NCBI GenBank assembly: GCA_030637515.1
Contig: DAOWGM010000102.1
Span: 1-64,000 of the forward strand
From: Bacteroidales bacterium
GTDB taxonomy: Bacteria; Bacteroidota; Bacteroidia; Bacteroidales; UBA12077
Direction of reading: 5' to 3'
Length of the DNA stretch: 64,000 bases
The notes beneath the pieces are model-generated. The model had not been told where the DNA came from, did not search any database, and was given only the letters and a program-made list of their open reading frames with translations. The position numbers were made by a program, and so were the translations under genes. This document shows positions 41,896 to 48,410 of this stretch, piece by piece (position 1 is the first letter of the stretch; each line of letters opens with the position of its first letter).

Positions 41896-43233
41896 TTATT
41901 TAAATTTCTTTAATATCGTTTTGATTTCCTTGATCTTTTCATCAAGAATCTTCTTATTTTCAGCTTCGGCCAATAGTCTTAAATAAGGCTCAGTATTCGA
42001 AGGGCGAATATTAAACCACCAGTCTTCAAATTCAAGTCTGTAACCATCAAAATCAAGAATTTCCATTGGTTCTTCTTCGGCAACAAAATAATCTTTTACA
42101 GCTTCCATTGCTTCTTGCTTTTGCTCAATTTTAAAATTGATTTCCCCGGAATTTGCATACTTACTAATACCTGAAATTAATTCCGACATTGTTTTTCCTT
42201 CTTTTTTAAATCGTGATATAAGATTTAAAACGATTAAAGCAGCTAAAATACCAGAATCGGAATAAAAGAAATCTCTGAAATAATAATGACCGGCCAATTC
42301 ACCACCATATATACCTTTTATTTCTCTTAATTTAGGTGTTGCATAAGCTCTTCCAACTCGCCAGGTATGCATTTTACCACCAAGGTTTTCCACGTACTTT
42401 TTAACTGCTTTCGATGTGCGAATATCTTCCAGTACTGCACCTTTTTCTTTTTCAAGAAAATAATGAGCCATTAAACCAATAATTAAATCAGGAGAAATAA
42501 ACTGTCCTTTTTCATCTACAAACATTACTCGGTCAGCATCACCATCGAAAATAATTCCTAAATCACAATTCTCGCTTAAAACTGTTTTCTTAAGATCAGC
42601 AACGTTTTCTTCAACTAATGGATTTGGTTCATGATTTGGGAAGCTTCCATCCATATCATCATAAAGATACATTGGTTTTTTACCTAAAAGTTTTTTAATA
42701 AGTAAACCAGCCATGCCGTTTGAGCAATCAACAGCCATTTTTAGTCCTGAATAATCCTGAACATAGGTTTTCAGAAACTCAACATATTCGCCTTTTACTT
42801 TATAGTCAACTATTTTTCCTTTTTTATCAGCAATTACAATATCGCGTGTTTGTATCATCTCTAAAAGCTTATTCAAGCCAGAATCAAAACCCACAGGTAA
42901 AGCATTTGATTTTGAGATTTTCATTCCGTTATATTCACGCGAATTATGAGATGCTGTAATTTGTACAGATGCAGCAAATTTATGCTTTGCTGTAATGTAG
43001 TAAACCATTGGTGTTGTAGAAATACCAATATTATAAACATTTGCTCCGCTATCAATTATTCCCTGAGCAAGATATTCAAAAATCTCATCTGATGAAACGC
43101 GAACATCTCTTCCTACCAACACATTGTCGGCTTGTAATAATTCTGGAAGAAAATAACCAATTTTGTAAGCATCTTCCTTATTAAAATCTTCGTTATAAAT
43201 ACCACGGATGTCGTATGCCTTAAAAGCTTTCAT
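41896..43233 (-). CDS. manB: Phosphomannomutase/phosphoglucomutase
   Basis: Interconverts 6- and 1-phosphohexoses, giving mannose-1-phosphate for the ManC step. Its 445 residues show the four-domain alpha-D-phosphohexomutase layout. The catalytic serine is in TASHNSREYNGMK (about residue 94-106), the metal loop is DGDADR (about 229), the sugar loop is GGELAGHYYF, and the phosphate-binding C-terminal loop is RPSNTEPYLRL. A near-consensus promoter (CATATTTG on the minus strand, 43256-43263) lies 22 nt upstream. Confidence 0.92.
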   Translation of the reverse strand: MKAFKAYDIRGIYNEDFNKEDAYKIGYFLPELLQADNVLVGRDVRVSSDEIFEYLAQGIIDSGANVYNIGISTTPMVYYITAKHKFAASVQITASHNSREYNGMKISKSNALPVGFDSGLNKLLEMIQTRDIVIADKKGKIVDYKVKGEYVEFLKTYVQDYSGLKMAVDCSNGMAGLLIKKLLGKKPMYLYDDMDGSFPNHEPNPLVEENVADLKKTVLSENCDLGIIFDGDADRVMFVDEKGQFISPDLIIGLMAHYFLEKEKGAVLEDIRTSKAVKKYVENLGGKMHTWRVGRAYATPKLREIKGIYGGELAGHYYFRDFFYSDSGILAALIVLNLISRFKKEGKTMSELISGISKYANSGEINFKIEQKQEAMEAVKDYFVAEEEPMEILDFDGYRLEFEDWWFNIRPSNTEPYLRLLAEAENKKILDEKIKEIKTILKKFK

Positions 43234-43335: not shown

Positions 43336-44622
43336 TTATTTTGTTAAAACCTTTACGGGCTCAATTCCTAAAGTTGTTCCTTCTTGAATTGCTTTTAGCA
43401 CAGCACCACCCCCTGTAAATATATAGTACTTAGGACTATCGAGAGCAACAATGTATAATCCTGGCAATAATCTTTTTAATTCCTGCATAGTATCACCGCC
43501 GCCATATAATTTTACCGCTTCTACATTTTCATCAATCAATTCATCAAGAGCAATAGTTCCTTCGTTAAAATGAGGAGTAAATCCCATTACAGCATTAACA
43601 AATACAGTTCGTGCCGTTGAGAAAATTTTATGGATTTTATCTTCATAAAATGATTCTCTTGCAACGTCAAGCACATAATTTAATTTTGTTCCGGGCTTTA
43701 AATCATGAATATTATGAGTGCGGTGTTTTCCTTCAAATTTTCCTTCCAAAGTATCCGATTCAATAATAAAAGGTAGCTCTATCAATTTACCTGGATAGTT
43801 TTCGCTGAATTTCACAAATTCTTTTGCATGAACAAGATCTTCTTCTGAAATACCTTTTATTTCAATTTCATATTTTGCATATAGATACGCGTTGTAAATA
43901 ACACCTCCTAACACAAGATAATCCGCTTTTTTAATCAGAGCGTATAAGGAATCAATTTTTGTGTCGAATTTTGAACCGGCAACAACAGCAATAAAAGGAG
44001 ATTGTGGACTATATATTCTTTCCAAATTTTCAATCTCTTTTTGCATTAAAAAGCCTGCGTAAGATGGTAAATACTTATTTACACCAACTGTTGAAGCATG
44101 TGGTTGCCACGATCCGAAGGCATCATTAACAAAAATATCTGCTAAACCGGCAAGCTGATTTGCAAAACGATCCATATCAGAATCTTTTGATTCTTCGCCT
44201 TGAAACCAACGTGTGTTTGGTAAGTAAATTCCATCAATTTTTCCTTCTTTCAGTTCACGTATAGAATGATTTATCGATGTCTCAATTCCAATATATCCTT
44301 TGTTTTCATGAGGATAAAAATCTGGTATCTTCATATTAATATGAAGCTTGTTCCTTAAATACTCAACAATAGGTTCAACTGATGTATCCTTGCTGATTTT
44401 AATTTCACCTGTTTTTTTATCTTTTGGTCGTCCAACATGTGTCATTAAAATGATCTTTCCACCTTTTGCATTAATATGATAAAGAGTTCCTATGGTAGCA
44501 TCAATTCTGTACGGATCATGAATAATTCCTTTTTTTACCACATTATGATCAACACGAACCAACACTACTTTCCCGTTAAGATCTGCGTCCTGTATTAATG
44601 GAATATTATATTTGTCAATCAT
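43336..44622 (-). CDS. Divergent phosphoglycerate kinase-like protein
   Basis: 428 residues of the PGK family but distant from its neighbours. Conserved: D25 and N27 (RVDHNV), R39, H62 and R65 (THVGRP), R138 (NTRWFQGEE), the lysines K218 and K222 (AGSKFDTKI), YGGGDT and TGGGAVL. Changed: the canonical GTAHRAHAS, whose arginine binds 3-phosphoglycerate, reads GSWQPHAS, one residue shorter and without arginine. The protein also has extra loops (residues 68-75, 100-130). It may be a kinase with altered substrate, or a regulatory paralogue. It has its own Shine-Dalgarno sequence and lies 119 bp downstream of the double PGK gene. Confidence 0.85.
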   Translation of the reverse strand: MIDKYNIPLIQDADLNGKVVLVRVDHNVVKKGIIHDPYRIDATIGTLYHINAKGGKIILMTHVGRPKDKKTGEIKISKDTSVEPIVEYLRNKLHINMKIPDFYPHENKGYIGIETSINHSIRELKEGKIDGIYLPNTRWFQGEESKDSDMDRFANQLAGLADIFVNDAFGSWQPHASTVGVNKYLPSYAGFLMQKEIENLERIYSPQSPFIAVVAGSKFDTKIDSLYALIKKADYLVLGGVIYNAYLYAKYEIEIKGISEEDLVHAKEFVKFSENYPGKLIELPFIIESDTLEGKFEGKHRTHNIHDLKPGTKLNYVLDVARESFYEDKIHKIFSTARTVFVNAVMGFTPHFNEGTIALDELIDENVEAVKLYGGGDTMQELKRLLPGLYIVALDSPKYYIFTGGGAVLKAIQEGTTLGIEPVKVLTK

Positions 44623-44741: not shown

Positions 44742-47126
44742 TTAAATATCCTCACTAATAGCTTTTAAAGCAGGTAATTCTTTACCTTCAATATATTCGA
44801 GTAGTGCTCCACCAGCAGTAGAAATGTAGCTTATTTTATATGCAAGACTATATTTATTTACCGCAGCAATAGAATCCCCACCACCAATTAAGGAATATGC
44901 ACCTTTATCAGTAGCACGAGCAACAGCCATAGCTATTTTTAGTGTTCCCATCGAAAAGCTTGGCATTTCAAAAACACCAATTGGTCCGTTCCAAAGTATA
45001 GTTGAGGAATTTTCGATTACTTCTGTAAATTCATTGGCAGATTTTATACCAATATCCAGTCCCATCCAACCATCTTTTATCTGACTTATGTCGCAATGTT
45101 CTATATGTGCATCATTTTTAAAATCATCGGCTATAATGCAATCTGTTGGTAGGTAAAGCTTTACTCCATTCTTTTCAGCTTTTGAAATAATGTTTTTTGC
45201 TACATCAATAAAGTCATTTTCAATGAGTGAATTACCAACTTTACCACCCATGGCTTTTGCGAAAGTAAATGCAATTCCTCCGGCAATAATTAAATTGTCA
45301 ACCTTTTCAATAAGCGCTTCAATAATATGAATTTTGGTTGAAACTTTTGAACCTCCCAATATTGCAGTAAATGGCTTTTTTGCTTGTTTTACAACTTTAT
45401 CAATATTATTAACCTCGTTTTCAACTAAATAACCAAACATTTTATCTTCAGGGAAAAATTTAGCTAATGTATATGTAGAAGCATGAGCTCTGTGTGCTGT
45501 TCCAAAAGCATTAAAAACATAAACATCACCCAATTCAGCTAATTGTTTTGCAAATTCTTCATTAGCTTCAGTTTCTTCTTTATGGAACCGAAGATTTTCA
45601 AGTAATAAACACTCTCCCGGCTTTAATACAGCTGATGCAATTAAAGCTTTTTCTCCAATACAATCCTCCGCAAATTTTACCTTCTTGTCAAGTGCTTTTG
45701 ATAAATAAGGCAATATATGTTTTACCGAATATTTCTCGTCTATTTTGCCTTTAGGTCTTCCTAAATGAGTTAAAAATATTACAGAACCTCCTTCTGCCAA
45801 AATTTTTCGCACCGTTGGTAAGGCTGTTATTATTCTTGTATCATCAGTAATTTCTCCATTTTCATCTAAAGGAACGTTAAAGTCCACTCTCATTAATACT
45901 TTTTTGCCTTCAAAATCGTATCTGTCGATTGTTAGGTTTTGTTTTATAGCTTTTATACTTGGTAGCTCTTTTCCTTCAAGATATTCTAATAATGCACCGC
46001 CTGCTGTTGAAATAAAACTGATTTTATGAGCTAAGCTATATTTATTTACAGCAGCAATGGAATCGCCTCCGCCAATTAGTGAAAAAGCTCCTTTATCAGT
46101 AGCACGTGCGACAGACATTGCTGTTTTAAGTGTTCCCATTGCGAAGCTTGGCATTTCAAAAACTCCAATAGGCCCATTCCAGAGAATTTTTTCTGAGTTT
46201 TCGATTACTTCTGCAAAACGATTGGCAGATTTTATACCAATATCAAGACCCATCCATCCATCAGGAATTTCATTTATATTACAATGATCAATCTTAGCAT
46301 CATTTTTAAATTCATTTGCAATAACGCAATCAGTGGGTAAGTATAATTTAACATTATTTTTTTCTGCTTCTTCAATAATGTGTCTTGCAAAATCTAAAAA
46401 TTCATCTTCAACTAAAGAATTTCCAATTTTACCACCCATTGCTTTTGCAAAAGTGTAAGCAATTCCACCAGCAATAATCAGATTGTCTACTTTTCCAATC
46501 AGAGCTTCAATAATATGAATTTTGGACGATACTTTTGATCCGCCAAGAATTGCGGTAAAAGGATGTAATGGTTGGTGTAAGATTTTATCGATATTTTTGA
46601 TTTCACTTTCTACGAGATAGCCAAACATACTATTTTTAGGAAAATGTTTTGCAATAGTAAAAGTTGATGCATGAGCTCTGTGCGCTGTTCCAAAAGCATT
46701 ATTTACAAAAACATCGCCAAGCCCGGCTAATTTTTTAGCAAAATTCTCATCAGCATCTGTTTCTTCTTTATAAAATCGAAGATTTTCAAGCAATAAAACC
46801 TCTCCCGGCTGTAGGGTTTTTGAAAGTTCCTGAGCCTCTTCACCAATACAATCAGAAGCAAATTTTACTTCGCGGTCAAGAATCTTGCTTAAATGCGGAA
46901 GTATAATTTTAAGAGACATTTTCTCATTAAATTTTCCCTTTGGCCTTCCCAAATGTGTTAGAAGAATTATGGAACCACCTTCCGCAAAGATTTTCTGAAT
47001 TGTTGGAACTGCAGTTATTATTCTTGTATCATCGGTAATTTCCAGATTCTCATTTAAAGGGACATTAAAGTCAACGCGCATTAAAACTTTTTTCCCTGAA
47101 AAATTATAGTTGTCGATAGAATACAT
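44742..47126 (-). CDS. pgk: Tandem phosphoglycerate kinase-phosphoglycerate kinase fusion
   Basis: Single frame of 794 residues with two complete PGK domains: 1-396 and 397-794. PGK transfers phosphate from 1,3-bisphosphoglycerate to ADP in glycolysis. Both halves keep the 3PG site (D19/N21/R35/H58/R61/R117/R150; D415/N417/R431/H454/R457/R513/R546) and the nucleotide/phosphate lysines (K198/K202; K594/K598), plus GGGDS and STAGGA. Aligned with a constant 396-residue offset and no gap, they match at about 303 of 398 positions (76%, counted by eye). The usual VNDAFGT reads VNNAFGT and VFNAFGT. Standard PGK is about 395-400 residues, so each half is full length. The joint is direct, without a linker. 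Confidence 0.95.
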   Translation of the reverse strand: MYSIDNYNFSGKKVLMRVDFNVPLNENLEITDDTRIITAVPTIQKIFAEGGSIILLTHLGRPKGKFNEKMSLKIILPHLSKILDREVKFASDCIGEEAQELSKTLQPGEVLLLENLRFYKEETDADENFAKKLAGLGDVFVNNAFGTAHRAHASTFTIAKHFPKNSMFGYLVESEIKNIDKILHQPLHPFTAILGGSKVSSKIHIIEALIGKVDNLIIAGGIAYTFAKAMGGKIGNSLVEDEFLDFARHIIEEAEKNNVKLYLPTDCVIANEFKNDAKIDHCNINEIPDGWMGLDIGIKSANRFAEVIENSEKILWNGPIGVFEMPSFAMGTLKTAMSVARATDKGAFSLIGGGDSIAAVNKYSLAHKISFISTAGGALLEYLEGKELPSIKAIKQNLTIDRYDFEGKKVLMRVDFNVPLDENGEITDDTRIITALPTVRKILAEGGSVIFLTHLGRPKGKIDEKYSVKHILPYLSKALDKKVKFAEDCIGEKALIASAVLKPGECLLLENLRFHKEETEANEEFAKQLAELGDVYVFNAFGTAHRAHASTYTLAKFFPEDKMFGYLVENEVNNIDKVVKQAKKPFTAILGGSKVSTKIHIIEALIEKVDNLIIAGGIAFTFAKAMGGKVGNSLIENDFIDVAKNIISKAEKNGVKLYLPTDCIIADDFKNDAHIEHCDISQIKDGWMGLDIGIKSANEFTEVIENSSTILWNGPIGVFEMPSFSMGTLKIAMAVARATDKGAYSLIGGGDSIAAVNKYSLAYKISYISTAGGALLEYIEGKELPALKAISEDI

Positions 47127-47282: not shown

Positions 47283-48410
47283 ATGCAGTTTAAAGAGGTT
47301 GTCGGACATAAGAGTATAAAGGAAAAGTTAATTCAAACGGTTAATGGAAATAGAATTAGTCATGCTCAACTTTTTTTAGGAGAGAATGGTTCCGGGATTC
47401 TGGCTCTTGCAATTGCATATGCACAGTATGTTTCATGTGAAAATAAACAGCAAGATGATTCATGTGGTGTTTGCTCTTCCTGTTTAAAATTTACAAAATT
47501 AGTACATCCTGATTTGCATTTTGTTTATCCGGTTTCAACCTCAAAGGCTGTTAAAAAAGACCCTGTTAGTGATGATTATATTGCACAGTGGCGCGAAACA
47601 ATTATTGAAAATCCATATATAAATCAAAACAAATGGTACGAAATAATTGATGTTGAAAATAAGCAGGGAATCATAAGCAAAAATGAAAGTTACGAGATAT
47701 TAAAAAAGCTCAATTTAAAAACATTTGAATCCGAATATAAAATAATGATAATTTGGTTGCCAGAAAAAATGAATTCTTTTGCAGCCAATAAGTTATTAAA
47801 GCTGATAGAAGAACCACCAGAAAAAACTTTGTTTTTATTGGTTTCAGAAAACTCAGAACAAATTATACCTACCATACTTTCAAGAACTCAATTAATAAAA
47901 ATCCCTAAAATTGATAATGATAGTATGCGAAGTACACTTTGCGATAGAAATGGATTAGCTCCTGAAAAGGCAAATGACATTGTTCATCTTGCAAATGGGA
48001 ATTACCACGAAGCACAGAATTTGATTCATTCTGCAGAAGAAGATAATTACAACTTTGATCAGTTTACTATAATGATGCGATTAGCATATCAGCGAAAAGT
48101 AATTGAGGTAATTGATTGGGTAGATGAAATCTCCAGAATAGGACGGGAGAAGCAAAAAAACTTTTTATTATATGCTTTAAGGCTTGTACGAGAAAATTTC
48201 ATGTTGAATATAGATAATAAAGAATTGGTTTATCTAACACGAAAGGAATTAGATTTTTCAGAGAACTTTTCTCAGTTTATTAATCACGATAATGTCTATG
48301 AGCTTTATGAAGCTTTAAATCGGGCTCATTCGGATATTGAAATGAATGCTTACAATAAAATTGTATTTTTGGATTTAGCTTTAAAGATTATAAAATTGAT
48401 TAAAAAGTAA
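47283..48410 (+). CDS. holB: DNA polymerase III delta' subunit-like protein
   Basis: Clamp-loader subunit of 375 residues. The AAA+ N-terminal domain has the opening GHKSIKEKLIQTV and HAQLFLGENGSG, a degenerate Walker A without the GKT end, as is normal for delta'. Four zinc-type cysteines occur at C57, C66, C69 and C72 (SCENKQQDDSCGVCSSCLK). The sensor region reads EPPEKTLFLLVSENSEQIIPTILSRTQLI. It leads a group with the PSP1 gene, gldH and trmB, an arrangement recalled from other Bacteroidota. Confidence 0.88.
   Translation: MQFKEVVGHKSIKEKLIQTVNGNRISHAQLFLGENGSGILALAIAYAQYVSCENKQQDDSCGVCSSCLKFTKLVHPDLHFVYPVSTSKAVKKDPVSDDYIAQWRETIIENPYINQNKWYEIIDVENKQGIISKNESYEILKKLNLKTFESEYKIMIIWLPEKMNSFAANKLLKLIEEPPEKTLFLLVSENSEQIIPTILSRTQLIKIPKIDNDSMRSTLCDRNGLAPEKANDIVHLANGNYHEAQNLIHSAEEDNYNFDQFTIMMRLAYQRKVIEVIDWVDEISRIGREKQKNFLLYALRLVRENFMLNIDNKELVYLTRKELDFSENFSQFINHDNVYELYEALNRAHSDIEMNAYNKIVFLDLALKIIKLIKK

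Follow-up and report, generated by a model that had tools for sequence, protein, structure and literature searches.

A gene encoding two phosphoglycerate kinases fused in tandem in Bacteroidales

Phosphoglycerate kinase (PGK) is a textbook monomer that closes two lobes around its substrates. According to the excerpts used here of a review of the enzyme (PMC7729029), most PGKs are monomeric, with a mass near 45 kDa; the excerpts also cover archaeal dimers and fusions of PGK with triose-phosphate isomerase (PGK-TIM), including the tetrameric one of Thermotoga. Those excerpts make no mention of a PGK-PGK fusion. Among the papers listed by full-text literature searches, as judged from titles and the starts of abstracts, there is likewise none on such a protein, which agrees with the statement in a first-pass annotation of this DNA that no such fusion is known to have been described. 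Duplicated and fused kinases are already known in glycolysis, where hexokinase provides the example (excerpts of PMC2972215). A literature search for a precedent among two-domain arginine kinases returned nothing useful.

The window studied here, meaning the whole stretch of DNA that was analysed, is 64,000 nucleotides long and comes from a 4.1 Mb draft genome that is 91% complete with 7.7% contamination (contig C171). The closest named public relatives of this genome are metagenome-assembled genomes, most of them labelled Bacteroidales. The features discussed below are as follows.

44742-47126, minus strand: PGK-PGK fusion gene, a single open frame of 794 codons plus stop with two full PF00162 matches
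45939-47126, minus strand: first PGK half, residues 1-396; PF00162 positions 1-379, 507 bits; 17 of 17 checked positions present
44745-45938, minus strand: second PGK half, residues 397-794; PF00162 positions 1-379, 506 bits; 17 of 17 checked positions present
45915-45944, minus strand: junction KQNLTIDRYD, residues 395-404, of constant length across the fusions read
43336-44622, minus strand: divergent stand-alone PGK paralogue of 428 amino acids; PF00162, 276 bits; 119 bases downstream of the fusion gene
41896-43233, minus strand: gene that we take to be phosphoglucomutase/phosphomannomutase-like; conserved neighbour, adjoining the divergent PGK in all 17 genus loci where that PGK is present
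47283-48410, plus strand: divergently oriented neighbour, presumably a DNA polymerase III delta-prime-like gene (holB)

The in-frame PGK-PGK fusion claimed in the first-pass annotation is borne out, and lies on the minus strand. Its frame begins with ATG at 47126, ends with TAA at 44744-44742 and encodes 794 amino acids with no internal stop. Each half covers all 379 positions of the PF00162 model. A gap-free alignment of the two halves spans 396 residues at 77% identity, close to the roughly 76% first estimated. Near the gene, sites resembling promoters or terminators are no more numerous than in shuffled sequence.

A different identity, PGK/TIM, was considered and rejected. PF00162, matched twice, is the only family above its cut-off in this protein, and there is no triose-phosphate isomerase domain. 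The NCBIfam model NF010569 nevertheless scores the fusion at 1010.6 bits against a cut-off of 883, because the scores of the two PGK halves add up; its best stretch in the fusion covers positions 4-393 of 645. A standard family model would thus name this protein PGK/triose-phosphate isomerase, and automatic annotation may wrongly credit such genomes with a TIM activity.

A PF00162 search of the window genome and 58 relatives finds the fusion in 19 of the 20 sampled genomes of the genus, the window's included. The other 18 genus fusions are single frames of 783-820 amino acids, with L037 cut by a contig end. In the order, at least 16 of 393 sampled Bacteroidales genomes carry the gene, distributed over families f1, f10, f34, f48, f54 and f83. 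Among the matches listed, 11 of these are single matches, three are pairs of matches within a frame close to 800 codons long, and two are partial at contig ends; a further one of the 16 lacks its last residues. The fusion also occurs on named public contigs (L071-L090), and some fusion contigs exceed 280 kb. De-duplication leaves 34 distinct fusions, two of which (L037 and L168) lack their last residues. The fusion is a trait common to six family-level groups of the sampled Bacteroidales and not a local oddity.

Searches at the level of the phylum covered 395 genomes, the window's among them. Among the matches listed, the junction profile is matched over its full length (1-102) only in the window genome, and no other frame exceeds 467 codons. 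The full fusion model also returns only the window genome from this set, at a strict cut-off that could miss divergent fusions. E. coli genomes queried with a Bacteroidota pgk gave no match.

In four loci of the sister genus g2 (L055, L056, L057 and L058), and in L054 of genome G001, the fusion is absent from the neighbourhood of holB and the divergent PGK. In G001, which is 78% complete, a single contig carries both holB and the divergent PGK, and what lies between the two is three other frames but no fusion. The PF00162 search finds no canonical PGK in the five genomes behind these loci. The fusion gene seems to have been lost in the g2 loci and in G001.

The junction gives an indication of how the two copies were joined. 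Between the final conserved residues of the first copy and the first Phe of the second, the span is 10 residues in all 32 fusions that could be read by pattern. A total of 36 were tested, namely the 34 distinct fusions and two partial ones, and the four missed by the pattern look the same by eye in the alignment. In 90 distinct sequences classed as single PGKs, tails are most often 2 residues long (45 of 71 readable) and heads most often 8 (54 of 81 readable); two of the 71 readable tails are ends of fusions in truncated loci. These commonest lengths sum to the 10 residues of the junction, and the join therefore keeps both genes whole, without the stop codon only.

A stop codon mutated from TAA to CAA had first been proposed as the origin of the join. 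The codon for Q396 is indeed CAA (45941-45939), and the next codon, AAC, occupies the expected ATG position of the second copy. Q ends only 2 of the 71 single-PGK tails, but the tail of 1 residue that a read-through stop requires is rare as well (3 of 71). Plain loss of the stop codon is the other route, and, as far as the junction lengths go, both fit. Most likely, pgk was duplicated at its native locus in a bacterium ancestral to several Bacteroidales families, and the stop between the copies was then lost.

Gene neighbourhood and trees bear on the same origin. The fusion has a holB-like gene as its neighbour in 23 of 29 fused loci; a single pgk has one in 16 of 62 loci, eight of these in Flavobacteriaceae. 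This shared neighbour suggests that the fusion was inherited at the native place of pgk. Six fused loci show no holB neighbour. Flanking sequence is short in several loci, but at L089 it extends 6 kb upstream and contains no holB. The first-pass annotation had named a tree of the two halves as a check. In a tree of 54 rows, a single branch with support of 100/100 splits 32 fused halves from 22 singles; this tree omits 44 of 98 rows (long-branch, partial or redundant) that were selected once the first tree had been seen. That first, quick tree of all 98 rows has the same split with a support of only 50; the row L091, labelled single in it, is the terminal piece of a fusion truncated at a contig end. 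Taken with the junction, the tree and the neighbourhood indicate that the fusion most likely arose once in Bacteroidales.

In the window's genus, L083 and, by a narrow margin, f34, the two halves of a protein resemble each other more than either resembles its counterpart in the window or elsewhere. This closeness is not seen in L084, L160, L161, L168 or L085-L090. The N and C halves of f34, f10 and f48 are sisters in the 98-row tree, and those of f34 and f10 are separated in the 54-row tree. The AU test gives p 0.365 for the N halves as one clade and p 0.405 for the C halves, such that a simple early split of N and C halves is not rejected. On this mixed evidence, gene conversion within the gene may have homogenised the halves in some lineages. 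The longest identical runs between halves are those of L083 (1557-3938), at 50 and 37 bases, which suggest recent gene conversion in that gene, and those of L163 and L164, at up to 37 bases. Recent conversion within the window gene was considered and is not supported. Its halves have a nucleotide identity of 0.744, which resembles the values obtained when the window's N half is compared with C halves of other genus genomes (mean 0.726, maximum 0.751).

Seventeen positions were compared in 35 first halves and 35 second halves. Every one of the 35 second halves has all 17. Twelve are kept in every first half, and the other five vary in a few first halves, the window's excluded: N317 (D in six), S356 (T in six), R61 (Q in L086), D355 (N in L087) and H58 (S in L159). 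T is itself a usual PGK residue at the S356 position. Six of the positions are equivalents of 3-phosphoglycerate-binding residues of the pig enzyme; the roles of the rest are those that we presume them to have in PGKs. Excerpts of the review give Asp23, Asn25, His62, Arg65, Arg122 and Arg170 as the pig residues that bind 3-phosphoglycerate (PMC7729029). With pig numbering mapped to the window by motif, D19, N21, H58, R61, R117 and R150 and the equivalent columns of the second half are present, so that this binding set is complete. The earlier view that substrate residues are intact in both domains thus holds for each window half. Among 18 genus sequences, the median dN/dS is 0.051 for the first half and 0.048 for the second, from 108 and 102 usable pairs, respectively, out of 153, and with dS near saturation. 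Both halves are under strong purifying selection within the genus, with dN/dS of about 0.05.

An AlphaFold2 model built with 21 fusion sequences is of moderate confidence, with a pLDDT of 81 and a pTM of 0.50, and residues 389-397 fall below 50. It contains no confident arrangement of the halves and no defined interface. Solved PGKs match about one half of the model's length, with TM scores by target of up to 0.96, and the first half has close sequence matches among solved PGKs. The model hints that the tether between the two PGK units is probably flexible and does not hold them in a fixed arrangement. The first suggestion of a covalent dimer with cooperativity is fair as to the covalent dimer, but the predicted fold offers no interface through which the halves might cooperate.

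We consider it likely that this gene encodes a bivalent PGK, two working enzymes linked covalently in one chain, and that it goes back to a single event in which pgk was duplicated in place and the two copies became one frame. Each half would bind 3-phosphoglycerate or 1,3-bisphosphoglycerate together with ATP or ADP. Residues and selection predict that the window halves most likely each run the ordinary PGK reaction independently. The protein would then be two ordinary PGK units tethered end to end, each closing on its own substrates, and would work beside the second, divergent PGK.

The tether itself could be without effect. A stop codon may have been lost by chance and the fusion kept since both copies add activity, an account to which we give somewhat less than an even chance. 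It agrees with an end-to-start junction that has gained neither linker nor added domain, with the lack of a predicted interface between halves, and with the missing gene in sister genus g2 and G001. However, the fusion spans six families of the sample, and purifying selection on both halves is strong within the genus.

An arrangement like that of hexokinase, with the second half as the catalyst and the first half drifting to a regulatory or structural role, appears unlikely for the window gene, in which every checked residue is kept in both halves and dN/dS is nearly equal between them in the 18 genus sequences. It draws more from side lineages. Departures from the checked residues occur only in first halves, with none in 35 second halves. 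Six related proteins (L085-L090), whose halves are only 56-59% identical, carry N317D, to which L086 adds R61Q and L087 adds D355N, and L159 carries H58S; N317D, however, may be tolerated. A seemingly independent gene in genus g83, described below, places an altered lone C-domain ahead of a full PGK. Mammalian hexokinase I supplies the precedent (excerpts of PMC2972215), and by analogy the loss of catalytic residues from first halves only, confined to L085-L090 and L159, recalls that enzyme.

The divergent PGK next to the fusion gene, on which the first-pass annotation of the fusion is silent, is found in 52 of 393 order genomes (E <= 1e-70). It is present in 14 of the 16 listed fusion genomes (absent from G180 and G184) versus 38 of 377 others, counts that are not independent because the genomes share ancestry. 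All 29 distinct relatives fetched have Gln at the position of Arg170 (R150) and a gap at that of E324. The divergent PGK is the sole PF00162 match in 11 of 29 genomes, mostly picked for having no canonical PGK seen earlier, and also in G001 and G020-G023. In these genomes, where no other PF00162 match occurs, all PGK activity may fall to it.

Genus g83 (G105, G208, G296 and G362) has another arrangement, in which a lone, altered PGK C-domain is joined to a full PGK. The genomes that carry it are near-complete.

L165 1492-3405, L166 1492-3405 and L167 1495-3441, minus strand: g83 half-PGK fusion of 638-649 residues, with altered nucleotide motifs in the lone C-domain

A PRGL insertion is present in the three g83 copies read, in 5 of 93 single sequences and in none of 34 fusions. 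This pattern points to the g83 fusion as a separate event.

A broader proposal, which we regard as unlikely, is that Bacteroidales with the divergent PGK have repeatedly rebuilt or lost the canonical one, by way of the tandem, the g83 prefix or outright loss. The tandem would then be bivalent and possibly allosteric, as part of a two-PGK system, and the divergent enzyme, which has no counterpart of Arg170, would take over part of the flux or other phosphate chemistry.

That two genes in tandem were collapsed or joined into a chimera during assembly, which had been named at the outset as what would undo the claim, can be dismissed even though the window genome is a draft with 7.7% contamination: fusion frames recur in many independent assemblies (34 distinct fusions, some on the contigs above 280 kb), which excludes chance and collapse, the window halves are only 77% identical, and the junction length is constant throughout.

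A natural covalent pair of PGKs provides a direct test of what tethering does to kinetics, stability and regulation. Its various outcomes (both halves kept, residue loss in first halves, half-PGK fusion and loss of the gene) constitute a comparative series of the kind available for hexokinase. Hexokinase and PGK are unrelated enzyme families. The mammalian 100-kDa hexokinases differ from the window protein, both PGK halves of which keep the checked residues. The canonical Bacteroidota PGK is matched as a whole model (PF00162) by each fusion half and partly shares the holB neighbour, but has one copy per chain where the fusion has two. The Thermotoga PGK-TIM protein (fus; NF010569) resembles the fusion in joining a PGK domain in frame to another glycolytic enzyme, and differs in its partner, which is TIM there and a second PGK here. 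The archaeal PGKs of Pyrococcus and Methanothermus, as described in the review excerpts, consist of two units like the fusion, but are homodimers of separate chains (PMC7729029).
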